From: Brachypterus glaber
Taxonomy: Eukaryota > Arthropoda > Insecta > Coleoptera > Kateretidae
Reading direction: 5' to 3'
Length of the DNA stretch: 64,000 nucleotides
NCBI GenBank assembly: GCA_958510825.1
Contig: OY294045.1
Span: forward strand, 14,125,916-14,189,915
In this document: piece after piece, positions 8,159-56,774 of the stretch
How the letters are laid out: each line of letters opens with the position of its first letter
How positions within the stretch are numbered: position 1 is the first letter of the stretch
Made by a program: the position numbers and the translations under genes
The notes under the pieces: model-generated
The model's database searches: none
What the model was told of the DNA's origin: nothing
Seen by the model: the letters and a program-made list of their open reading frames with translations, nothing else

Positions 8159-9253
8159 TCAGTCCCAACCATGGTGATGGGTAACTTTTACCCAGACTTT
8201 TTCCCATACTGGCTTTGAGATTTTCTTCCATGCTGGTACCTCTCTGGTCTTCCAGATTGGTATCCAGATTTTCTTCCATTCATCTTTCCACGCTTCCTTC
8301 TTTTCTGTTACCCATTTTTGTACTTTTTCTGTCCTCCAGATTTGAACTTTTTCTTGCTTCCATATCAATTCTTTCTTTGGAATCCAAATCTGTTTCTTTT
8401 CTGTCCTCCAGATTTGTTCTTTCTTTGGAATCCAGATTTGTTTCTTTTCCGTTCTCCAAATTTGTTTCTTTTCGGTTCTCCAGATTTGTTTCTTTTCAGT
8501 TCTCCAAATCTGTTTCTTTTCTGTTTTCCAGATTTGTTTCCATTCTGATTTCCATTCCATTTTCTTGGATGGTACCCAAATTTGTTTCTTTTCTGTCCTC
8601 CAGATCTTCTTCCATTCAGGTTTCCATATAAGTTTCTTTCTCCACAAATCGTGTGCGGTGTATTCAGCGCCATGCTCATCTTTTCCCAAATAGTGCTCTC
8701 CAGGAATTCCCATCTTGACCCAGTCGGGTACCCAGATCTTTTTCCAGTCTGGTACTTGGATTTCTTTCCAAGCAGCTACTTTAGTTTCTACCCAGACTGG
8801 TTTCCAGATTTGTTTCCATGCTGGAACTTGAATTTCCTTCCAGTCGGGTACTTGAATTTCTTTCCAGTCGGGTACTTGAATTTCTTTCCAGTCTGGAACT
8901 TGAATTTCTTTCCATGCTGGAACTTGAATCTCTTTCCAATCAGGTACTTGGATTTCTTTCCAGGCAGGAACTTGAATTTCTTTCCAAATAGGTTTGCTTA
9001 CGACTTTCCAGTCTGGAACTTGAATTTCTTTCCAAATAGGAACTTGTATTTCCTTCCAGATTGGAACCTGAATTTTCTTCCAATCAGGCTTCCATACTAG
9101 TTTCTTTTCATGTTTCCAGACCTTTACCCATTCAGTTTTCCACGTCAATTTTTTACTCCAGTACCCTTCGGGTTCATGATGGGAACGTTTAGAGCGCGAG
9201 AGACTAACAGGACCTCCATGAGATGGGGTGATATAGATGCACCCTAGCAGAAC
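8159..9253 (-). CDS. Secreted Trp/Lys-rich repeat protein, main (3') exon
   Basis: An open frame of about 364 codons ending in TGA. About 35 residues precede the repeats: a hydrophobic start VLLGCIYI, then a basic SRSKR, which looks like the end of a signal peptide and a possible processing site. No ATG starts the frame; it opens after a T-rich tract and AG (9255-9254), so the start lies in an upstream exon. An alternative acceptor is at 9245-9244. The next part holds 11 IQVP repeats of the form WKEIQVPx, with x = D, A or I. A unique segment (IPGEHYLGKDEHGAEYT, DLWRKK) divides this from a second half built on QIWRTEKK and QIWxPKK. The C-terminus is THHHGWD. Trp and Lys dominate, Cys is absent from the repeats. 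I infer an extracellular structural role (cuticle, eggshell or silk-like); no catalytic motif is visible. Similar Trp/Lys repeat proteins occur in insects, but I cannot name the family. Confidence 0.85.
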   Translation of the reverse strand, partial: VLLGCIYITPSHGGPVSLSRSKRSHHEPEGYWSKKLTWKTEWVKVWKHEKKLVWKPDWKKIQVPIWKEIQVPIWKEIQVPDWKVVSKPIWKEIQVPAWKEIQVPDWKEIQVPAWKEIQVPDWKEIQVPDWKEIQVPDWKEIQVPAWKQIWKPVWVETKVAAWKEIQVPDWKKIWVPDWVKMGIPGEHYLGKDEHGAEYTAHDLWRKKLIWKPEWKKIWRTEKKQIWVPSKKMEWKSEWKQIWKTEKKQIWRTEKKQIWRTEKKQIWRTEKKQIWIPKKEQIWRTEKKQIWIPKKELIWKQEKVQIWRTEKVQKWVTEKKEAWKDEWKKIWIPIWKTREVPAWKKISKPVWEKVWVKVTHHHGWD

Positions 9254-9522
9254 CTTTTGACAAAAAAAAATAATATTATTTACAAAAAGTTTAATTATAC
9301 TAATATTGAAATCAATTGGATTTATTATTGTTTCATTATATTTATGTTTTAAGAAAATAATTAAACCTCAGAAGCTATGATTAAGTGTATTCTTCTTAGT
9401 GTGTTAATAAAGTGAACAGTAGTTAATAAATTATTTATATTACTTATTAGACAATAAACTTCAATAATACAAATACAAAAAAAATAAAAATTGTGTTCAT
9501 TTTCAATCGCTGAACATGAAAC

Positions 9523-17217: not shown

Positions 17218-17439
17218 ATTTTAACACACATTCTAGATCTTTGAGAAACAGAAAGATTTTTACTGATAACTTTCCTGTAAAATTTCCACCTTGATTTAAC
17301 AAGATCTTTTCGGTAAACATTTAGATCTTTCGGTCTGTCAATCCAAAGAACTCGGCTAAATTTTTTTTACAAAACAATGTTGGAAACATTATTTTTTTTG
17401 TATCTGTAGAGCAATGTATTTTTTACTTTACACTGTCGG

Positions 17440-18815
17440 TCTGTCGATCTTTCGATCTGTTGATCTGTCCATCTGTCGATATGTCGATCTGTCGATCCGT
17501 TGGTCTGTCGGTCTGTAGATGTGTCGGTCCACGGTCTGTCAGTCTTTCGTTCTGTGTGTCTGTCGGTCTGTCGGTCTGTCGCTCTGTCGGTCTGTTCGTC
17601 TGTACGTCTGTCGGTCTGTCGTTCGGTCGGTACCTCTGTCTGTCAGTCGCTTTTAACCCTTATAGTTTAAATTTTTAGAAGAGCTTATTAGTATAAATAT
17701 CTTTTAGGGAATTTTATAGGAATATTACAGGAGTCGCTAAGGGGGGTTTTAGTTTGAATTTCTGTTTTTTTATCATAACATTTGTATCTGGAGCTTTTTT
17801 TTAATGTTTGTCGGTATGTCAGTAAGTCGGTATGTCGTTATGTCGGTCTGTCGGTCTGTCGGTCTGTACGTCTGTCTGTCAGTCGCTTTTAACCCTTTTA
17901 GTTTAAATTTTTAGAAGAGACTATTAGTATAAATATCTTGTAGGGAATTTTATAGGAATATTACAGGAGTCGCTAAGGGGGGTTTTAGTTTGAATTTCTG
18001 TTTTTTGATCATAACATTTGTATCTGGAGCTTTTTTAATGTTTGTCGGTATGTCAGTATGTCGGTATGTCGTTATGTCGGTCTGTCGGTTTGTCGGTCTG
18101 TACGTCTGTCTGTAAGTCGCTTTTAACCCTTTTAGTTTAAATTTTTAAAAGAGCCTATTAGTATAAATATCTTGTAGGGAATTTTATAGGAATATTACAG
18201 GAGTCGCTAAGGGGGGTTTTAGTTTGAATTTCTGTTTTTTGATCATAACATTTGTATCTGGAGCTTTTTTTTTAATGTTTGTCGGTATGTCAGTATGTCG
18301 GTATGTCGTTATGTCGGTCTGTTCGTCTGTCGGTCTGTCGTTCGGTCGGTACGTCTGTCTGTCTGTCAGTCGCTTTTAACCCTTATAGTTTAAATTTTTA
18401 GAAGAGCCTATTAGTATAAATATCTTGTAGGGAATTTTATAGGAATATTACAGGAGTCGCTAAGGGGGGTTTTAGTTTGAATTTCTGTTTTTTGATCATA
18501 ACATTTGTATCTGGAGCTTTTCTTTTAATGTTTGTCGGTATGTCAGTATGTCGGTATGTCGTTATGTCGGTATGTCGGTCTGTCGGTCTGTCGGTCTGTC
18601 TGTCTGTTCGTCTGTCGGTCTGTCGTTCGGTCGGTACGTCTGTCTGTCAGTGGCTTTTAACCCTTAAAGTTTAAATTTTTAGAAGAGCTTATTAATATAA
18701 ATATCTTGTAGGGAATTTTATAGGAATATTAGAGGAGTCGCTAAGGGGGGTTTTAGTTTGAATATCTGTTTTTTGATCATAACATTTGTAACTGGAGCTT
18801 TTTTTTTAATGTTTT
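17440..18815 (+). repeat. Composite minisatellite: GTCG/GTCT run plus conserved spacer, about 5 copies
   Basis: Each unit holds a variable run of GTCGGTCTGTC words and a roughly 165-bp conserved block from GTCGCTTTTAACCCTT to ATCTGGAGCTTTTTTT. Block starts are at about 17646, 17882, 18116, 18369 and 18650, so periods are 236, 234, 253 and 281 bp. The block is nearly constant while the GTCK run changes length. Cys/Ser/Val-rich reading frames come only from the GTCK run and are not genes. Confidence 0.9.
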
Positions 18816-24158: not shown

Positions 24159-24530
24159 TCATCATCACAGTTTGGACTTTTTTTTTTTCAAAATGGGGAC
24201 AACACGGGGTACGGGTTTTTGCACCAGAAGCTAGCTAAAAGTTCAGGCTTTCTTACAGTGTCTATATCTTAAGTTAATTACTATGAATCAGCAACGAAAT
24301 CTCTGTCCGTAAATAAAAAAATATCGTATTTGCATAGCATCATCACAGTTTTTTAATTTTTTTTTCAAAATGGGGACAAAACGGGGTACGGGTTTTTGCA
24401 CCAGAAGCTAGCTAAAAGTTCAGGCTTTCCTACAGTGCCTATATCTTAAGTGAATCACTATGAATCAGCAACGAAATCTCTGTCCGTAAATAAAAAAAAA
24501 TTAAAAAACCGTATTTGCATAGCTGAATTT
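24159..24530 (+). repeat. Tandem duplication, about 180 bp x 2
   Basis: Both copies hold CATCATCACAG, CAAAATGGGGACAA, GGGTACGGGTTTTTGCACCA, GAAGCTAGCTAAAAGTTCAG and AACGAAATCTCTGTCCGTAA. Copies begin near 24159 and 24337 and differ at few sites. No frame is conserved as protein. Confidence 0.9.
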
Positions 24531-29169: not shown

Positions 29170-29720
29170 CCCAGACAGCACAAAATAACTATTAGATATC
29201 CAGGGGATATAATTTCTGGATATAGAGTACATCCATTGAATAGCCTGGATAGCCATTAGATATCCCATGGACATCCAAATGTTTGCCTATATCCAGGATA
29301 TCCACTAGATATCCACGAGATATCCAGTGAACATATATTTTTTTAACCTCCCTAAAGTATATCCACTGGACGTCCATTACAGATCCATCATGGATATCCA
29401 GGATATCCATGGATATAGGGATATACTTTCTGGATATAGAGTATATCCATTGGATAGCCTGGATAGCCATTTAATATCCCATGGACATCCAAATGTCCGC
29501 CTATATCCAGGATATCCACTGGATATCTACGAGATATCCAGTGAACATATATTTTTTTAACCTCCCTAAAGTATATCCACTGGATATCCATTAGAGATCC
29601 ATCATGGATATCCAGGATATCCATGGCTATCTAATGGCTATCCAGGCTATTCAATGGATATACTCTATATCCAGAAAGTATATCCCCTGGATATCTAAAA
29701 GTTATTATGTGCTGTCTGGG
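29170..29720. mobile_element. GATATCC-rich palindromic element, copy 2
   Basis: Ends CCCAGACAGCAC and GTGCTGTCTGGG. It is the same family as 27713-28168, but one arm segment of about 200 bp is present twice (from about 29215 and from about 29425, each with TTCTGGATATAGAGT and ACCTCCCTAAAGTATATCC). It is thus longer and asymmetric. There are no genes. Confidence 0.85.
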
Positions 29721-44299: not shown

Positions 44300-44800
44300 C
44301 CATGAAACATTGAATAATTTAATGTAATTTAAAGTTTTGCGTTAAAATTACGTAAAATTTATTAGTTTTTCTTAATATTTGACCAGTTTTTTATCAATTT
44401 AGTTCAAAAAATTAAAACTGCTCCATCTATTGTTAAATATTTAAACCTGATATCTGTCACAAAAATCTGACATAAGCTTCAATTTTTTGCATTATAATTT
44501 GTAAATAGGTGCTAAATAAAATAAATAAAAATCTTTTTTAAGTACTGATTTGATAAAATTATTAAATAACATTAATTGCTTCATTTAATAATATGTGTTT
44601 TGTTGCTTTTACAATGTTGAGTAGCAAAAAACATTGTTTTTAACCTTGTCCGCAGTTTAAAGCCGTACAGTGTTTCATATTTGCAGTCGAAGAAAAAGTA
44701 TAGACTACAACACGTATGGAATAGTCATTCCGAGCTCGCGGCACCGTCATACTCGCCTGCCGCGCGGAATATTGTCTATTCCATACTAGTTATAGAATAT
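44105..44800 (-). mobile_element. Dispersed element, copy 2, abutting the ribozyme array
   Basis: Inverted copy of 22925-23545. It carries an extra GC-rich piece of about 50 bp at 44732-44781 (GAGCTCGCGGCACC, TCGCCTGCCGCGCGG) that splits CATTCC/ATAC of the other copy. Its end (TAGTTATAGAAT) lies only some 20 bp from the inverted partial unit of the satellite. Confidence 0.8.
44264..44298. repeat. (TA)n microsatellite
   Basis: About 17 TA units; the sister copy has a shorter ATAT tract at 23370. Confidence 0.95.
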
Positions 44801-44816
44801 ACTATACTAAATATTT

Positions 44817-45029
44817 TAATAAACTAAATTAAATTGTTTGATATTTACAAATTTAAAAAATCTATATAAAACATTTTACTATTCCTTAAAACGACTTTTG
44901 TTTGATTAACGCAGTCGTCCCTCCGAAGTGACTGATCGATTTCGTGCTTTTTAGCACTCTTCAGAGCCACATATCGGTAGTAGGGACAACTACGAAAATC
45001 AAATCCTTTCCATATATCTCTATATAGAG
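44817..45029 (-). repeat. Inverted partial satellite unit at the array edge
   Basis: About 213 bp of the satellite unit in reverse orientation, from the TTAATTTAGTTTATTA side to the palindrome CTCTATATAGAG (45018-45029), including a full ribozyme (44914-44990). Its outer 110 bp (44817-44926) can pair with the first 110 bp of the direct array (45034-45145), leaving the reversed ribozyme as loop. Confidence 0.9.
44914..44990 (-). ncRNA. Type I hammerhead ribozyme, inverted copy, intact core
   Basis: Same 77-nt fold as the direct copies, read on the minus strand, with core CUGAAGA, stem II GUGCU/AGCAC, then GAAAUCGAUC. Predicted cleavage is between 44934 and 44933. It is the only copy facing left. 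Confidence 0.85.
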
Positions 45030-45401
45030 TATAAGGGACGACTGCGTTAATCAAACAAAAGTCGTTTTAAGGAATAGTAAAATGTTTTATATAGATTTTT
45101 TAAATTTGTAAATATCAAACAATTTAATTTAGTTTATTAATTCAGATACCACTGTAAAAGGTGACCTCCTAGCGTTTAGGATTCAATTGGCAGCAATGTC
45201 CACCGTGGCATTGATTAATCTGCCCCCTATCGACAGCGTGCAATAGGTTCTTGAAACCAATAACTGCTTCCTTTTTTGGACTGTCGATAGGTTTATCCAG
45301 TCTCTGCTTTTAGCAGTAGATGTCGCTAGCTGTTTTTGCTTTTCCTTACAACGATTTTTAAACTCTATATAGAGATATATGGAAAAGATTTGATTTTCGT
45401 A

Positions 45402-45478
45402 GTTGTCCCTACTACCGATATGTGGCTCGGAAGAGTGCTAAAAAGCACGAAATCGATCAGTCACTTCGGAGGGACGAC
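45402..45478 (+). ncRNA. Hammerhead ribozyme, unit 1, core mutated
   Basis: The core reads CGGAAGA instead of CUGAAGA, so the U of the conserved uridine turn (position 4) is G. All stems are kept. Loss of this base should largely abolish cleavage (expected site 45458/45459). Confidence 0.7.
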
Positions 45479-45837
45479 TGCGTTAATCAAACAAAAGTCG
45501 TTTTAAGGAATAGTAAAATGTTTTATATAGATTTTTTAAATTTGTAAATATCAAACAATTTAATTTAGTTTATTAATTCAGATACCACTGTAAAAGGTGA
45601 CCTCCTAGCGTTTAAGATTCAATTGGCAGCAATGTCCACCGTGGCATTGATTAATCTGCCCCCTATCGACAGCGTGCAATAGGTTCTTGAAACCAATAAC
45701 TGCTTCCTTTTTTGGACTGTCGATAGGTTTATGCAGTCTCTGCTTTTAGCAGTAGATGTCGCTAGCTGTTTTTGCTTTTCCTTACAACGATTTTTAAACT
45801 CTATATAGAGATATATGGAAAAGATTTGATTTTCGTA

Positions 45838-45914
45838 GTTGTCCCTACTACCGATATGTGGCTCTGAAGAGTGCTAAACAGCACGAAATCGATCAGTCAC
45901 TTCGGAGGGACGAC
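45838..45914 (+). ncRNA. Type I hammerhead ribozyme, unit 2, intact core
   Basis: Full description of the fold, 5' to 3'. Outer stem I GUUGUCCC pairs with GGGACGAC (one G-U pair). The internal loop is UACUACCGAUAU against UUCGGA. Inner stem I is GUGGCU with AGUCAC (one G-U). Core strand is CUGAAGA, stem II GUGCU/AGCAC with loop AAAC here (AAAA in most units), core strand GAAA, then the AUCGAU palindrome and C at the cleavage site (45894/45895). Stem III has no room for a loop in one molecule, so two copies probably pair AUCGAU with AUCGAU, as in the double hammerhead of newt satellite RNA. The internal loop of stem I facing loop II is the usual site of the tertiary contact in natural hammerheads. 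Pairing is read from sequence; activity is untested. Confidence 0.9.
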
Positions 45915-46273
45915 TGCGTTAATCAAACAAAAGTCGTTTTAAGGAATAGTAAAATGTTTTATATAGATTTTTTAAATTTGTAAATATCAAACAATTTAAT
46001 TTAGTTTATTAATTCAGATACCACTGTAAAAGGTGACCTCCTAGCGTTTAGGATTCAATTGGCAGCAATGTCCACCGTGGCATTGATTAATCTGCCCCCT
46101 ATCGACAGCGTGCAATAGGTTCTTGAAACCAATAACTGCTTCCTTTTTTGGACTGTCGATAGGTTTATCCAGTCTCTGCTTTTAGCAGTAGATGTCGCTA
46201 GCTGTTTTTGCTTTTCCTTACAACGATTTTTAAACTCTATATAGAGATATATGGAAAAGATTTGATTTTCGTA

Positions 46274-46350
46274 GTTGTCCCTACTACCGATATGTGGCTC
46301 TGAAGAGTGCTAAAAAGCACGAAATCGATCAGTCACTTCGGAGGGACGAC
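46274..46350 (+). ncRNA. Type I hammerhead ribozyme, unit 3, intact core
   Basis: Standard version with loop II AAAA. Predicted cleavage 46330/46331. Confidence 0.9.
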
Positions 46351-46710
46351 TGCGTTAATCAAACAAAAATTCGTTTTAAGGAATAGTAAAATGTTTTATA
46401 TAGATTTTTTAAATTTGTAAATATCAAACAATTTAATTTAGTTTATTAATTCAGATACCACTGTAAAAGGTGACCTCCTAGCGTTTAGGATTCAATTGGC
46501 AGCAATGTCCACCGTGGCATTGATTAATCTGCCCCCTATCGACAGCGTGCAATAGGTTCTTGAAACCAATAACTGCTTCCTTTTTTGGACTGTCGATAGG
46601 TTTATCCAGTCTCTGCTTTTAGCAGTAGATGTCGCTAGCTGTTTTTGCTTTTCCTTACAACGATTTTTAAACTCTATATAGAGATATATGAAAAATATTT
46701 GATTTTCGTA

Positions 46711-46787
46711 GTTGTCCCTACTACCGATATGTGGCTCTGAAGAGTGCTAAAAAGCACGAAATCGATCAGTCACTTCGGAGGGACGAC
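46711..46787 (+). ncRNA. Type I hammerhead ribozyme, unit 4, intact core
   Basis: Standard fold; the unit carries the upstream variant ATGAAAAATATTT (others have ATGGAAAAGATTT). Predicted cleavage 46767/46768. Confidence 0.9.
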
Positions 46788-47146
46788 TGCGTTAATCAAA
46801 CAAAAGTCGTTTTAAGGAATAGTAAAATGTTTTATATAGATTTTTTAAATTTGTAAATATCAAACAATTTAATTTAGTTTATTAATTCAGATACCACTGT
46901 AAAAGGTGACCTCCTAGCGTTTAGGATTCAATTGGCAGCAATGTCCACCGTGGCATTGATTAATCTGCCCCCTATCGACAGCGTGCAATAGGTTCTTGAA
47001 ACCAATAACTGCTTCCTTTTTTGGACTGTCGATAGGTTTATCCAGTCTCTGCTTTTAGCAGTAGATGTCGCTAGCTGTTTTTGCTTTTCCTTACAACGAT
47101 TTTTAAACTCTATATAGAGATATATGGAAAAGATTTGATTTTCGTA

Positions 47147-47223
47147 GTTGTCCCTACTACCGATATGTGGCTCGGAAGAGTGCTAAAAAGCACGAAATCG
47201 ATCAGTCACTTCGGAGGGACGAC
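47147..47223 (+). ncRNA. Hammerhead ribozyme, unit 5, core mutated
   Basis: Same CGGAAGA core change as unit 1, so both descend from one mutated copy. Expected to be inactive. Confidence 0.7.
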
Positions 47224-47582
47224 TGCGTTAATCAAACAAAAGTCGTTTTAAGGAATAGTAAAATGTTTTATATAGATTTTTTAAATTTATAAATATCAAA
47301 CAATTTAATTTAGTTTATTAATTCAGATACCACTGTAAAAGGTGACCTCCTAGCGTTTAGGATTCAATTGGCAGCAATGTCCACCGTGGCATTGATTAAT
47401 CTGCCCCCTATCGACAGCGTGCAATAGGTTCTTGAAACCAATAACTGCTTCCTTTTTTGGACTGTCGATAGGTTTATCCAGTCTCTGCTTTTAGCAGTAG
47501 ATGTCGCTAGCTGTTTTTGCTTTTCCTTACAACGATTTTTAAACTCTATATAGAGATATATGGAAAAGATTTGATTTTCGTA

Positions 47583-47659
47583 GTTGTCCCTACTACCGAT
47601 ATGTGGCTCTGAAGAGTGCTAAACAGCACGAAATCGATCAGTCACTTCGGAGGGACGAC
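47583..47659 (+). ncRNA. Type I hammerhead ribozyme, unit 6, intact core
   Basis: Stem II loop AAAC, like unit 2. Predicted cleavage 47639/47640. Confidence 0.9.
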
Positions 47660-48018
47660 TGCGTTAATCAAACAAAAGTCGTTTTAAGGAATAGTAAAAT
47701 GTTTTATATAGATTTTTTAAATTTGTAAATATCAAACAATTTAATTTAGTTTATTAATTCAGATACCACTGTAAAAGGTGACCTCCTAGCGTTTAGGATT
47801 CAATTGGCAGCAATGTCCACCGTGGCATTGATTAATCTGCCCCCTATCGACAGCGTGCAATAGGTTCTTGAAACCAATAACTGCTTCCTTTTTTGGACTG
47901 TCGATAGGTTTATCCAGTCTCTGCTTTTAGCAGTAGATGTCGCTAGCTGTTTTTGCTTTTCCTTACAACGATTTTTAAACTCTATATAGAGATATATGGA
48001 AAAGATTTGATTTTCGTA

Positions 48019-48095
48019 GTTGTCCCTACTACCGATATGTGGCTCTGAAGAGTGCTAAAAAGCACGAAATCGATCAGTCACTTCGGAGGGACGAC
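48019..48095 (+). ncRNA. Type I hammerhead ribozyme, unit 7, intact core
   Basis: Standard version, like unit 3. Predicted cleavage 48075/48076. Confidence 0.9.
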
Positions 48096-48455
48096 TGCGT
48101 TAATCAAACAAAAATTCGTTTTAAGGAATAGTAAAATGTTTTATATAGATTTTTTAAATTTGTAAATATCAAACAATTTAATTTAGTTTATTAATTCAGA
48201 TACCACTGTAAAAGGTGACCTCCTAGCGTTTAGGATTCAATTGGCAGCAATGTCCACCGTGGCATTGATTAATCTGCCCCCTATCGACAGCGTGCAATAG
48301 GTTCTTGAAACCAATAACTGCTTCCTTTTTTGGACTGTCGATAGGTTTATCCAGTCTCTGCTTTTAGCAGTAGATGTCGCTAGCTGTTTTTGCTTTTCCT
48401 TACAACGATTTTTAAACTCTATATAGAGATATATGAAAAATATTTGATTTTCGTA

Positions 48456-48532
48456 GTTGTCCCTACTACCGATATGTGGCTCTGAAGAGTGCTAAAAAGC
48501 ACGAAATCGATCAGTCACTTCGGAGGGACGAC
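48456..48532 (+). ncRNA. Type I hammerhead ribozyme, unit 8, intact core
   Basis: Follows the ATGAAAAATATTT variant, like unit 4. Predicted cleavage 48512/48513. Confidence 0.9.
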
Positions 48533-48891
48533 TGCGTTAATCAAACAAAAGTCGTTTTAAGGAATAGTAAAATGTTTTATATAGATTTTTTAAATTTGTA
48601 AATATCAAACAATTTAATTTAGTTTATTAATTCAGATACCACTGTAAAAGGTGACCTCCTAGCGTTTAGGATTCAATTGGCAGCAATGTCCACCGTGGCA
48701 TTGATTAATCTGCCCCCTATCGACAGCGTGCAATAGGTTCTTGAAACCAATAACTGCTTCCTTTTTTGGACTGTCGATAGGTTTATCCAGTCTCTGCTTT
48801 TAGCAGTAGATGTCGCTAGCTGTTTTTGCTTTTCCTTACAACGATTTTTAAACTCTATATAGAGATATATGGAAAAGATTTGATTTTCGTA

Positions 48892-48968
48892 GTTGTCCCT
48901 ACTACCGATATGTGGCTCTGAAGAGTGCTAAAAAGCACGAAATCGATCAGTCACTTCGGAGGGACGAC
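48892..48968 (+). ncRNA. Type I hammerhead ribozyme, unit 9, intact core
   Basis: Standard version. Predicted cleavage 48948/48949. Confidence 0.9.
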
Positions 48969-49328
48969 TGCGTTAATCAAACAAAAATTCGTTTTAAGGA
49001 ATAGTAAAATGTTTTATATAGATTTTTCAAATTTGTAAATATCAAACAATTTAATTTAGTTTATTAATTCAGATACCACTGTAAAAGGTGACCTCCTAGC
49101 GTTTAGGATTCAATTGGCAGCAATGTCCACCGTGGCATTGATTAATCTGCCCCCTATCGACAGCGTGCAATAGGTTCTTGAAACCAATAACTGCTTCCTT
49201 TTTTGGACTGTCGATAGGTTTATCCAGTCTCTGCTTTTAGCAGTAGATGTCGCTAGCTGTTTTTGCTTTTCCTTACAACGATTTTTAAACTCTATATAGA
49301 GATATATGGAAAAGATTTGATTTTCGTA

Positions 49329-49405
49329 GTTGTCCCTACTACCGATATGTGGCTCTGAAGAGTGCTAAAAAGCACGAAATCGATCAGTCACTTCGGAGGG
49401 ACGAC
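49329..49405 (+). ncRNA. Type I hammerhead ribozyme, unit 10, intact core
   Basis: Last complete copy; the array stops about 50 bp after it. Predicted cleavage 49385/49386. Confidence 0.9.
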
Positions 49406-49459
49406 TGCGTTAATCAAACAAAAGTCGTTTTAAGGAATAGTAAAATGTTTTATAAATAT

Positions 49460-50480
49460 TTTAATATTATTAATTAAAATTAGGTCGTACTAAGATTATG
49501 GCAGAGGTAAATTTTATCTAAGAATAGGTGAAGAATCAGTGCGTATTCGACTTAAACTTGGCCAAAAATCACCCTCGAGGGATCCCTTCTTAACTTTGAA
49601 CGTGTTGAGACATCGACTTCAAATTTGAAACAATTTAAACTATCTTTTGACATACATTTGACCAAATGTTTATTAACTTTTTAGACTTTTTGAGGGTTTA
49701 AAATAGGTTTGAAAATTTAATTAGTATAAATTTCTTTAAAAAAATCAAACAGTTTTTGATATTTATCATTTATGATTAGTTTTAGAAATCAAAAACGTAA
49801 CTTATACTTTTAAACTAATTTTAAATAATTTTAAAAAAAACTCACCGCAAGCGGCTCGTTTTCTAAGCTTTTTGTGTTATGAAACTAGTACTTTAATGTA
49901 CTATTTTATAGGTGTTCCTATATACCTACACTAAACTATATTCAAAAAACTATATTATTTAGGTATTTAGGTTATTGGTTATTATATAAACATAATTTTA
50001 AATAAATTATGTATGCTAATTTGAATTTAAATATTCGATTGGAATTTGTAAACGATTTTTATACATTTGGGTAGGTCGGAACAAAACGTTATCTAATCTT
50101 ATATTTTACGGCTCGTTAACTATTTTGTTGATAAATAAGAGCTATTTTTTTTTAAACATTCTTTTTGTACCGGGCAACTTTAATGAGTGTATTTGGCGTG
50201 ACAAAAAAAACACTCATCATTCGACACTTGCTCACATTTCTTCTTCTTTAAAATTCTGTTAATTGTATGAGATTATAGTCTCATACAGAGTTGAAATTTT
50301 TTAAACACATTGATAGACACGATGTCGACACCTGATGTAATTGGTTAGCTTAAAATTTATTTCAGTATTTGTAAAAATTATAATTTCTTTTTATCTGGCG
50401 TGATGAATCAGGCGTGACAAAATTGATGTATTTTATTAAAAAATCTGTTTTGAGAACTTTTTTTTTAAATTCATAATCCC
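49460..50480. other. AT-rich stretch with a foldback-family end
   Basis: At about 49550-49660 TTAACTTTGAACGTGTTGAG and CATCGACTTCAAATTTGAAA match the arm at 4080; no partner arm was found. The rest holds no gene that I can support. Confidence 0.45.
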
Positions 50481-52755: not shown

Positions 52756-53100
52756 GGGTGTAAACTCTCTAACTCCATTTCTACATGAGATATCGACTTG
52801 CGGTTTTTTGCATATTATTTCTTATCGTATTCCGAAGAGCTGATTAGATTTTGGGGGTAAACAATTGGGGGTAAAACTCCTATTTTTAGCGTTTTTTGTT
52901 TATAATTAAGGCAATTATTATTGTATTTGGTTAATTTAGCACTTATATAAAAGATAATTTCAAATTGGTCAAAAAATGTTATAAACAACGTTTTCCTAAA
53001 ACGCATTGTTTTCGAGATATTGGCGTTTAAAGCAGTAAAAGGTTTTTTTAGCATATCTCACATATTTATAACCCGATTTCAAAATTTTTTATTTTAAATA
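52560..53100 (-). repeat. Dispersed element with terminal hairpin, copy 2
   Basis: Inverted copy of 37100-37640, with the hairpin ACATCGGCACTTAG / CTAAGAGTGCCGATGT at its left end and an expanded (GTCT)n run at 52719-52755. Confidence 0.75.
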
Positions 53101-53520
53101 AAAGCTCTTTTTAAGCCCTATAAAAATGTTATATACCGTTTTTTGCTAGAGTATAATGTTTTAAAGATACAGAATTTAAAATCAAACAAAACACCTAGTT
53201 TGAAATTTGCAAACTAGATGGCTCTAGTGTACAATAGTGTCGATGTTTTGACAGGGTACTTGCAACGTTTCATCTAATCTTATTTTAAATAAAAGCTCTT
53301 TTTAAGCCGTATAAAAAATGTTATATACCGTTTTTTGCTAGAATATAATGTTTTAAAGATACAGAATTTAAAATCAAACAAAACACCTAGTTTGAAATTT
53401 GCAAACTAGATGGCTCTAGTGTACAATAGTTTCGATGTTTTGACAGGGTGCTTGCAACGTTTCATCTACTTGTAATTTAAATAAAGACTAATTTAAAGCT
53501 ATAAAAATATAAAATTAATT
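53091..53520 (+). repeat. 191-bp tandem repeat, about 2.2 copies
   Basis: AAAAGCTCTTTTTAAGCC marks copies at about 53100 and 53291; a third, diverged start is at 53481. Each holds CTAGTTTGAAATTTGCAAAC, itself an inverted pair. Copies 1 and 2 differ at a handful of bases. Confidence 0.9.
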
Positions 53521-54113: not shown

Positions 54114-54842
54114 TCACATATGTAAGAACAGTCCGAGAAAGGATTTACTGAAGTTTTAGGAGAAGTTTGTTTACTGAAGTACGAAGTATGAAGTATGAAG
54201 TAATTTTGAGTATGAATATCACTCTGGAGTATAAAATATAAAGGTGATTATAATAAACATGAAGAAATTAATTAATTAATTTTATTAATAATAAATTATA
54301 AAAGACAGAAGTGTTAAACTGTCAATAAATAATGTTTTATATTCAATAAAATTTATTTAGTAATAGTATGAGAAATTTCATTTAGCTAAAAATTTATTAA
54401 TAAATCTGTGTTTCAGTTTCGGTGGTGTGGAAACAAGTTCATGTCTCACGGTGGGCTTTAAGCTTACGGAGAAAAAATCGAACACCCCATAACTGACAAC
54501 GGGATATTGTTTCTAATGCTTTCAGAATTACATGTTCGTTGAGAACAAAATCGTAGGTGTAGCCGTTTTTTATTCCATCAAAAATTAGTATATTAGTATA
54601 TATGTGACCCAATACAGTTTTAAATTAAAAAGTTTGAAGGTCTCATCCCTTAAATTTGTTTACTGGGGTAAGAGTATCATCCCTTATTGTTTTCAAAATT
54701 TTTGAAAAAATCTAGAGGTCGTTTTTCAAAAAATATGTTTTCTTAGCTTTTTTTATTTTTTTTTAAGGCCCAAGGATTTTTTAAAACTGAAAAATAATGC
54801 GATGACCAAAACACACGATAAGAGTAAGACAATAAAAACCTC
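54114..54842. other. AT-rich stretch, nothing recognised
   Basis: GAAGTA short repeats at 54175-54200; otherwise no signal. Confidence 0.5.
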
Positions 54843-55308
54843 TCTGCCCTCTAAGACAAGTTGTCCTATCTGCAAAAATTTACCTTTTGAGATGAGCACA
54901 CGATTGTATTGCTTTACACTAGCCCAATGTGTCTACTAAAAAGAAATGTCCTATCTAAAAGCCAAATCCTAAAACTTAGCCTAAGATTTTTGTCCTTTGT
55001 GGAAAAATTTCAATGCTTTCTAGATAAAATTGTCCTAAGATCTTAGTAATTTGATTGGACTTTTTAGGTCATTTTGTCCTAACTTTCTCAGATAGAACAA
55101 ATGAATTTAGTATGACAATTTATTTTTCTGACAAAAAAAATATATTTTTTTTTCAGGATATATCACGTATTTTTGATTTAAAATAAAGCAGGCCCAACGC
55201 CATATTTATTTAAACATGTTTCCAAAAAGTGCAAACAAAAACAATAAAACTGGCCATATCTCAAAATATCTAATTTGCAAATAGGACAACTTGTTTCAGC
55301 AGGGCAGA
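54843..55308. mobile_element. Inverted-repeat MITE, TCTGCCCT ends
   Basis: Left TCTGCCCTCTAAGACAAGTT and right AACTTGTTTCAGCAGGGCAGA type ends, continuing GTCCTATCTGCAAA / TTTGCAAATAGGAC. The word GTCCTA recurs inside (54950, 55031, 55076). Non-coding. Confidence 0.65.
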
Positions 55309-55548
55309 ATACGTATTACGATTTCCTCAAATTATTACCAAGGCACATTTCAAGCGTGACGCAACTCGACTTTCAGCGACCACTGTAACCGTACTAAAAT
55401 CCCTATAAAATTCATAATATATAAAAAAATTTAAGCACTTTTACCCTGCGATGAATAATTTAGCTGAAAAATAAGAAAAAAACAATTTCACTCCCAAATA
55501 GCCATTTTAAATATAAAGAACTTTCACTTTCGGGTTTAGACCGTGTTA

Positions 55549-55621
55549 ATGGATTTTCACTTTCCGACGTTTCGTCTCTTACTACTAGAGACATCTTCAG
55601 GGATTAATCTGAAAAAGCCAT
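55549..55621 (-). ncRNA. Type I hammerhead ribozyme of Penelope-like kind
   Basis: Minus-strand order: outer stem I AUGG...UUUUCA pairs with UGAAAA...CCAU; inner stem I UCC pairs with GGA, with an internal loop between. Core CUGAAGA, stem II GUCUCU/AGAGAC with a UAGUA-type loop, GAAA, then ACGU palindrome and C at the predicted cleavage site. Hammerheads ending GAAACGUC with a minimal stem III are described from Penelope-like retroelements. No reverse transcriptase or GIY-YIG frame is seen nearby, so this is probably a fragment. It differs from the satellite ribozyme in every stem. Confidence 0.7.
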
Positions 55622-55852
55622 TTTAAATATTTATAACTTGATATAAAACCAGCCGTCTCGAGAATACTTTCTCTTAAAAAAAAAGTTGTAAAATTTTTAA
55701 TATTTTGGGGAGGGGGGGTTGAGAGAGAGAGAAATTTTTTTTATATTTTAGGTGGTTTTAAAATATTTCTTCTATTGTAAATACTAAAAAAGTTATGTCT
55801 AGAAACAATTTTTTCAAGTTTGGAGAGGGGGTTTATGGAAAAAATGATAATA

Positions 55853-56774
55853 GAGGAAGGGTAGCAAATGTGGGCTAAGTCTTGTAATATGGGCTAGGTG
55901 GGTTTGTCAGCTATCCGATGCAGTTCTCTGCATCCGACTATCGCAAATCGTAAATGGCGAAGTTAACCTTCCACAGTAAAGATTCATTAATTAATTCATA
56001 CATTCGTTGACTTTTGAGAATTTATTTTTATTTTCCGTCCTTTTCAGCAAGCCACAGAACTTTTTTAGGTAAGTTTATAAATTCCGTTACCTGATAGATA
56101 ACAAACCATTTCTGCAACAAATTAAAGCCACATAATTGGGCTTTGATGTGTGCTTATTAGTTTTCTTCTAATTACTGTGTTTTAGACATAACCTCTTGTG
56201 TTGTATACACCGAGTATTTTTGCAATATGAGCCATCCCTGTGTTTCTATTATGGGCTATATAGAACTATGTATTTAAGCCTAGAATTTTTCTAGGAGGCC
56301 AAGAAAAGGTCAGCAAAAGTCAAGAATAGAAGAAAATGGAACGAGGGCGATATGGAACGCGCTATAATAGCGATGAGGCAGTACGAGATGGGTACCTTCA
56401 AAGCTTTAAATATGTTTAATATACCACTTCTATATTAGGAGTTATTTGATTTATTATTTCATTTTAGATATAATTTTTATACTTTTAACTTATTGCGACC
56501 AATAAGATTGATTGCCACTTCAAATCTAATATTTATAACACAATTTTTGGGGCAGCCCATATTTAGGGCCAATTTCAAATCGACACAAAAGTGCACCTTC
56601 TCACTATTTACGAAGTAATGAATTTATTATTTGTTTTAATCAATATGAATTTATAACAGGTTGTGACTAATTAATATAGCTATCGTTGGGTACATTTAGT
56701 ATTGGAACTAAACTTTTATTTATTTTTTTACAAGAAAAAATAAAATGGGTAGCCCATATTTGCTTCCTTTCCTC
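55853..56774 (+). mobile_element. pogo-type element, internally deleted
   Basis: Ends GAGGAAGGGTAGCAAATGTG and the complement CATATTTGCTTCCTTTCCTC, flanked by TA. TATGGGCTA-type words recur near both ends and inside (55870, 55889, 56254, 56549, 56751), likely transposase-binding repeats. The interior keeps a psq-type helix-turn-helix remnant (56295-56438). TA flanks plus this domain fit the pogo branch of Tc1/mariner. At 922 bp it lacks room for a DDE domain. Confidence 0.7.
56295..56438 (+). pseudogene. psq/CENP-B-like helix-turn-helix remnant of a pogo transposase
   Basis: From a possible acceptor (TTTCTAG) the frame gives a basic start AKKRSAKVKN, then RRKWNEGDMERAIIAMRQYE and MGTFKALNMFNIP, ending at TAG. 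This is the pattern of the N-terminal psq-type HTH of Tigger/pogo transposases and their domesticated relatives (KW..EDM..AI..., then A...F.IP). The expected next residues (RSTL) seem to be lost through a one-base deletion near 56427, which also brings in the stop. No DDE catalytic domain follows. It is non-functional as a transposase. Confidence 0.65.

Follow-up and report, generated by a model that had tools for sequence, protein, structure and literature searches.

We examined a tandem repeat in a 64,000-nucleotide (nt) stretch of the genome of the beetle Brachypterus glaber (contig OY294045.1; hereafter the window), whose units carry the layout of a type I hammerhead ribozyme. With slightly more confidence than doubt, we explain this locus as one insertion of a metazoan-type non-long-terminal-repeat (non-LTR) retrozyme that was mobilized by Penelope-like machinery. 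The parts of this statement differ in strength: the retrozyme identity of the array is, by its sequence features, very probable, whereas the choice of Penelope as mobilizer is about evenly balanced. The element probably yields self-cutting RNA, and it is noncoding by present evidence.

Tandem-repeat detection delimited a direct array with a period of 436 base pairs (bp), 10.2 copies, and 99% matches at 45034-49462. The preliminary description of a 436-bp satellite at 44817..49454 was right about the repeat, but the term "satellite" misleads, given that we see a single, bounded insertion with a duplicated target and one inverted end, and the first 219 nt (44816-45034) are an inverted partial copy. 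The whole interval, 44816-49454, consists of this partial unit on the minus strand—covering unit positions 336 to 118 across the cleavage site and departing from the consensus at two bases—followed by direct 436/437-bp repeats on the plus strand (45034..49454). The ten hammerhead layouts on the plus strand have cleavage sites 436 or 437 nt apart, predicted from the motif to lie after bases 45458, 45894, 46330, 46767, 47203, 47639, 48075, 48512, 48948, and 49385. Counted from site to site, the direct array begins with a piece of 425 nt (F), continues with nine complete 436/437-nt units (U1 to U9), and closes with a piece of 69 nt. F and each of U1 to U9 end with the hammerhead core, and the G+C content of the units is 35.5-36.5%.

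Within the motif, CUGAAGA is followed by a 5-bp stem II, GAAA, AUCGAU-C, an inner stem I (GUGGCU/AGUCAC), and an outer stem I (GUUGUCCC/GGGACGAC). That the parts of a type I hammerhead occur in order, as first proposed, is borne out by reading the sequence and by a strict descriptor (CUGANGA, GAAA, and a palindromic helix III, with minimum lengths of 4 bp for stem II, 5 bp for inner stem I, and 7 bp for the outer helix). This descriptor gave nine matches, which are all the intact sites of the interval, with none elsewhere in the window and none in 600 first-order Markov control windows; a looser descriptor gave a mean of 0.01 matches per window in 100 controls. Because the units are near-identical, the nine matches count as one independent event. 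A chance motif is ruled out by the Markov controls of both descriptors, and judged on this evidence the array holds genuine hammerhead motifs.

The claim that every unit encodes such a ribozyme holds for eight of the ten plus-strand copies, whose conserved core is intact, as it also is in the inverted copy, but fails for F and U4, in which CGGAAGA (at 45428 and 47173, respectively) replaces CUGAAGA, a change that we take to abolish activity. The intact plus-strand hammerheads span 45838..45914 (core at 45864), 46274..46350 (46300), 46711..46787 (46737), 47583..47659 (47609), 48019..48095 (48045), 48456..48532 (48482), 48892..48968 (48918), and 49329..49405 (49355); those with cores at 45864 and 47609 have AAAC as loop II. 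The two broken copies, which retain the cleavage site, span 45402..45478 (F) and 47147..47223 (U4), and the intact hammerhead of the inverted piece lies on the minus strand at 44914..44990 (core at 44964). Core changes have been described to abolish or strongly lower cleavage (PMC2837043).

A covariance search, which had been suggested as a check, gave no match in the window at the Rfam gathering score. The best sub-threshold matches of the whole-window scan were to HH9 (28.4 bits compared to the required 52, expectation value [E] 0.006) and Hammerhead_1 (27.3 bits compared to 34, E 0.019). Sub-threshold hammerhead matches cover all 11 copies, with HH9 at 28.4 bits in seven, HH9 at 24.9 bits in the two with broken cores, and Hammerhead_1 at 27.3 bits in two. 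We keep the type I class on the basis of structure because Rfam models miss some natural forms.

Folded as a circle, the consensus unit reaches −131.6 kcal/mol compared to −85.8 kcal/mol (standard deviation, 6.1) for 100 dinucleotide shuffles (z = −7.5), with pairing probabilities of 0.91-1.00 for inner stem I and stem II. The internal loop that had been placed between the inner and outer stem I is bounded by both stems as described, but it is divided by an extra helix, CCGA/UCGG (pairing probability, 0.96-1.00), so that stem I has three parts and merges, beyond this helix and GUUGUCCC/GGGACGAC, into a longer rod of paired sequence. The loop sequences are UAU/U in stem I and AAAA or AAAC in loop II. 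Helix III is one A-U pair closing a palindromic UCGA; the self-complementarity of AUCGAU allows a 6-bp helix III to be formed jointly by two units. Cofolding two 77-nt motifs returned only the trivial full antiparallel duplex and is no test of this dimer model. A one-pair helix III with a palindromic tetraloop is shared with the axolotl HHR_Amex1 and newt satellite hammerheads, which are expected to act as dimers, the axolotl form being weak alone and much better as a dimer (PMC7229834); the insect host and the unrelated unit set the present array apart from them. Most invertebrate hammerheads are described with a stable helix III (PMC7761336). By description, the pDo500 satellite of Dolichopoda is a further insect tandem repeat with a hammerhead, of about 500 bp, but its helix III folds within one sequence and stems I and II pair for the double form, whereas here it is helix III that would be shared (PMC2837043).

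The edges of the array carry the evidence for an insertion. The 14-mer TAAATATTTTAATA occurs exactly twice on the plus strand of the window, at 44808-44821 and 49453-49466, that is, at the two array edges. The last 6 nt of the left copy also match the end of the inverted piece and the first 2 nt of the right copy also match the unit, and with this microhomology the target duplication measures 12-14 bp. The inverted piece meets the direct array head to head, at unit position 12 of the latter, and a 12-bp palindrome, CTCTATATAGAG, lies beside this junction at 45018-45029, with 4 bases between it and the array start at 45034. At the right end, the array stops at unit position 69, inside the unit and away from the cleavage site, and we found neither an A-tail nor a simple-repeat tail there. 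These features indicate a single insertion that has defined limits and duplicated its target, rather than an open-ended satellite block. Just left of the insertion lies an imperfect hairpin (44697-44803) with 31-nt arms that are 81% complementary and a GC-rich loop. The inverted piece is also complementary over its 219 nt to direct-array sequence 323 nt off (44816-45576), and a read-through RNA from this region could, we infer, fold as a long hairpin and enter small-RNA pathways.

The unit appears to be noncoding. Its sense strand has no open reading frame (ORF) of at least 75 amino acids, and the only such frame common to the ten copies is an 84-amino-acid antisense frame for which a Pfam scan of one copy gave no match, and on this ground we rejected a coding repeat. 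Further copies of the unit in the window are limited to weak AT-rich matches (best E, 0.009). No exact match was found for two unit patterns in viral contigs or for one in prokaryote genome contigs, non-insect collections that are little informative here. We also considered an integrated viroid-like agent because of the rod-like circle, and left it aside because the descriptor finds no opposite-strand hammerhead in the direct units and nothing indicates RNA replication.

Set against the metazoan non-LTR retrozymes (PMC7229834), the array shares tandem noncoding units within 150-450 bp, a G+C content below 50%, a type I hammerhead, a target duplication of more than 4 bp, and a strongly folded circle; its 436/437-bp units contain no LTR, no coding region, and no Penelope or long interspersed nuclear element (LINE) protein. 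It differs in that 436 nt exceeds the ∼170 to 400 nt of their expressed RNAs and in its inverted end, which the main text of PMC7229834 does not mention (the word "inverted" is absent from it). The earlier suggestion of a retrozyme-type family is thus partly supported, by the tandem units, the type I hammerhead, the G+C content, the stable circular fold, and the target duplication. With Penelope-like elements, the array shares the form of insertion—tandem direct copies, an inverted 5′ partial copy, a junction palindrome, and a target duplication (PMC3846280)—as well as an AT-rich target and an internal start (PMC11167929). Descriptions of Penelope copies include a pseudo-LTR that lies inverted at the 5′ end, duplications measuring 8, 9, and 10 bp, and palindromes where copies meet head to head (PMC3846280), and a purified Penelope enzyme is reported to prefer AT-rich targets and to initiate internally (PMC11167929). 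The present array differs from these elements in lacking a coding region and in having a hammerhead that is not minimal (PMC7761336).

A candidate minimal hammerhead lies 6 kb from the array, on the minus strand at 55540-55640 (core at 55600). It comprises CUGAAGA, an extra U, a 6-bp stem II, GAAACGUC with a palindromic ACGU, a 3-bp inner stem I, and outer helices, and free folding of 105 nt reproduces this layout except that the extra U pairs with the G of GAAA. An extra-U descriptor, which was shaped after the motif had been seen, finds it and matches 1 of 1,500 control windows; Rfam gave no hammerhead up to E 5 in 54800-56400. The candidate is flanked by a 28-nt direct repeat (86% identity; copies 116 nt apart) and is, by description, alike in outline to the minimal hammerheads of Penelope elements (PMC7761336), and it is possibly a relic of such an element.

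These observations suggest the following course of events. The array would be transcribed into multimeric RNA, in which the hammerheads of two units may pair through their self-complementary AUCGAU to form a common helix III of 6 bp, each cutting the other after C and thereby giving 436-nt RNAs; in such a dimer, both CGGAAGA copies would be dead as catalysts yet cuttable as substrates. Host tRNA ligase would then close the 436-nt RNAs into rod-like circles. Circularization by tRNA ligase and mobilization by Penelope elements, with LINEs also possible, were proposed by Cervera and de la Peña in 2020 (PMC7229834). For insertion, an RNA of several units would undergo target-primed reverse transcription at an AT-rich site by a reverse transcriptase and endonuclease of Penelope-like type that act in trans, with synthesis beginning internally, at about unit position 69. 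The inverted 219-nt end may stem from renewed priming on the opposite strand of the target or from self-priming near the palindrome; in the head-to-head geometry of Penelope, self-priming would require an antisense template (PMC3846280).

Variants among the units bear on the template of this insertion. Shared variants link F with U4 (the broken core), U1 with U5 (A to C in loop II), and U3 with U7 (G to A together with G to T). Each recurring variant is spaced four units apart, with U8 and U9 off the pattern. For the three markers present in exactly two copies each, the chance of one common spacing is 0.022 and that of all being at spacing 4 is 0.0024, a computation that omits a three-copy marker (columns 139/140, in U3, U7, and U9) and private changes. 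Barring later rearrangement of the array, this recurrence speaks against copying from a single-unit circle; it would be explicable by a multi-unit RNA, by a four-unit circle, or by later duplication of a four-unit block. We tentatively raise the possibility, which we consider less likely than not, that a Penelope-type insertion occurred here whose source was a long multi-unit RNA (or four-unit circle) left uncut by its hammerheads, instead of the single-unit circle that the current model assumes.

Several points weigh against a retrozyme moved by Penelope-like machinery. The Rfam matches stay below threshold, and in the whole-window scan the unrelated family MIR828 (39.1 bits, E 0.00061) outscores the hammerheads; since unrelated families score equally well or better, the covariance result alone is insufficient for a hammerhead claim. 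Penelope-like elements encode a reverse transcriptase, usually joined to a GIY-YIG endonuclease; Pfam gave no reverse transcriptase or endonuclease match in 30 of the 80 listed ORFs of the window, the unit included. The duplication is AT-rich, and among 4,000 control pairs of AT-rich 28-nt stretches, 5 share at least 14 nt and 20 share at least 12 nt. Some Penelope copies lack an inversion or a target duplication (PMC3846280), a Penelope element has been described without reads starting or ending at the hammerhead site (PMC11167929), and the case is built on a single locus. LINEs, too, are described to leave 5′ inversions with target duplications through twin priming. A retrozyme moved by LINE machinery, with target-primed reverse transcription and twin priming producing the duplication and the 5′ inversion, is a possibility that we take seriously, if an improbable one: twin-primed L1 insertions are described as inverted with target duplications at their flanks, the 12-14 bp duplication and the short microhomologies are consistent with it, and LINEs are named as possible helpers in PMC7229834. 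However, the right end has no tail of the kind sought, tandem copies with a palindrome at a head-to-head junction are described for Penelope (PMC3846280), and the nearby candidate hammerhead is of the minimal type described for Penelope (PMC7761336). Three features lead us to favor Penelope machinery, namely the tandem copies, the palindrome, and the missing tail, but they come from one locus and cannot by themselves decide the matter.

The remaining explanations dispense with a separate mobile retrozyme. On one hand, the repeats could form an ordinary satellite whose hammerhead is an inert relic and which spread through unequal exchange or through extrachromosomal circular DNA. The four-unit variant period resembles local duplication, two of ten cores are broken, and the hammerhead is not visibly spared variation (2 of the 10 variable alignment columns fall in it), but the sharp edges with a duplicated target, the inverted end, and the strongly folded circle with its hammerhead stems intact make this unlikely. 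On the other hand, the unit could be what remains of a Penelope element after loss of the coding region, namely its pseudo-LTR. Type I hammerheads are indeed found in Penelope pseudo-LTRs, which form tandem arrangements that include inverted copies (PMC11167929, PMC3846280, PMC7761336); these hammerheads are, however, described as minimal forms that lack both helix III and loop contacts (PMC7761336), compared to the long three-part stem I found here—though helix III is very short here as well—and the antisense frame common to the ten copies matched no Pfam family in the copy scanned. We consider this last explanation very unlikely.

Other features of the window lie apart from the array. A 401-amino-acid repeat protein (8159-9364, minus strand) matches DUF4816 (E 2.5e-72) and has WKEIQVPDWKEIQVP-like repeats; among its 21 matching proteins, all 10 that carry an organism name are from insects, including Timema, Nesidiocoris, and Musca. 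An array of the 8-bp unit TGTCGGTN, arranged in longer periods of 234, 253, and 281 bp, occupies 17433-18814. Two-copy tandem repeats at 24180-24498, 29204-29630, and 53089-53485 have periods of 177, 214, and 192 bp, respectively, and neither the strict nor the extra-U descriptor finds a hammerhead in them.

The array is best filed as a further metazoan retrozyme, of which the informative part is the Penelope-like insertion footprint. Penelope elements or LINEs have been proposed as retrozyme mobilizers because hammerheads, tandem copies, and genomes are shared (PMC7229834, PMC7761336). Among the titles and abstract openings listed by literature searches, we found no report of inverted ends of animal retrozymes or of this unit, which is a weak statement of absence. 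A single bounded insertion with such a footprint makes the mobilizer of animal retrozymes testable by comparing insertion ends across the copies of one genome, and the recurring unit variants offer a test of whether single-unit circles are the true template. If the array was indeed templated by uncut RNA, transposition would profit from the weakness of helix III and from the broken cores, since both would leave some RNA uncut, and the cut circles would be a side product or a separate stage.

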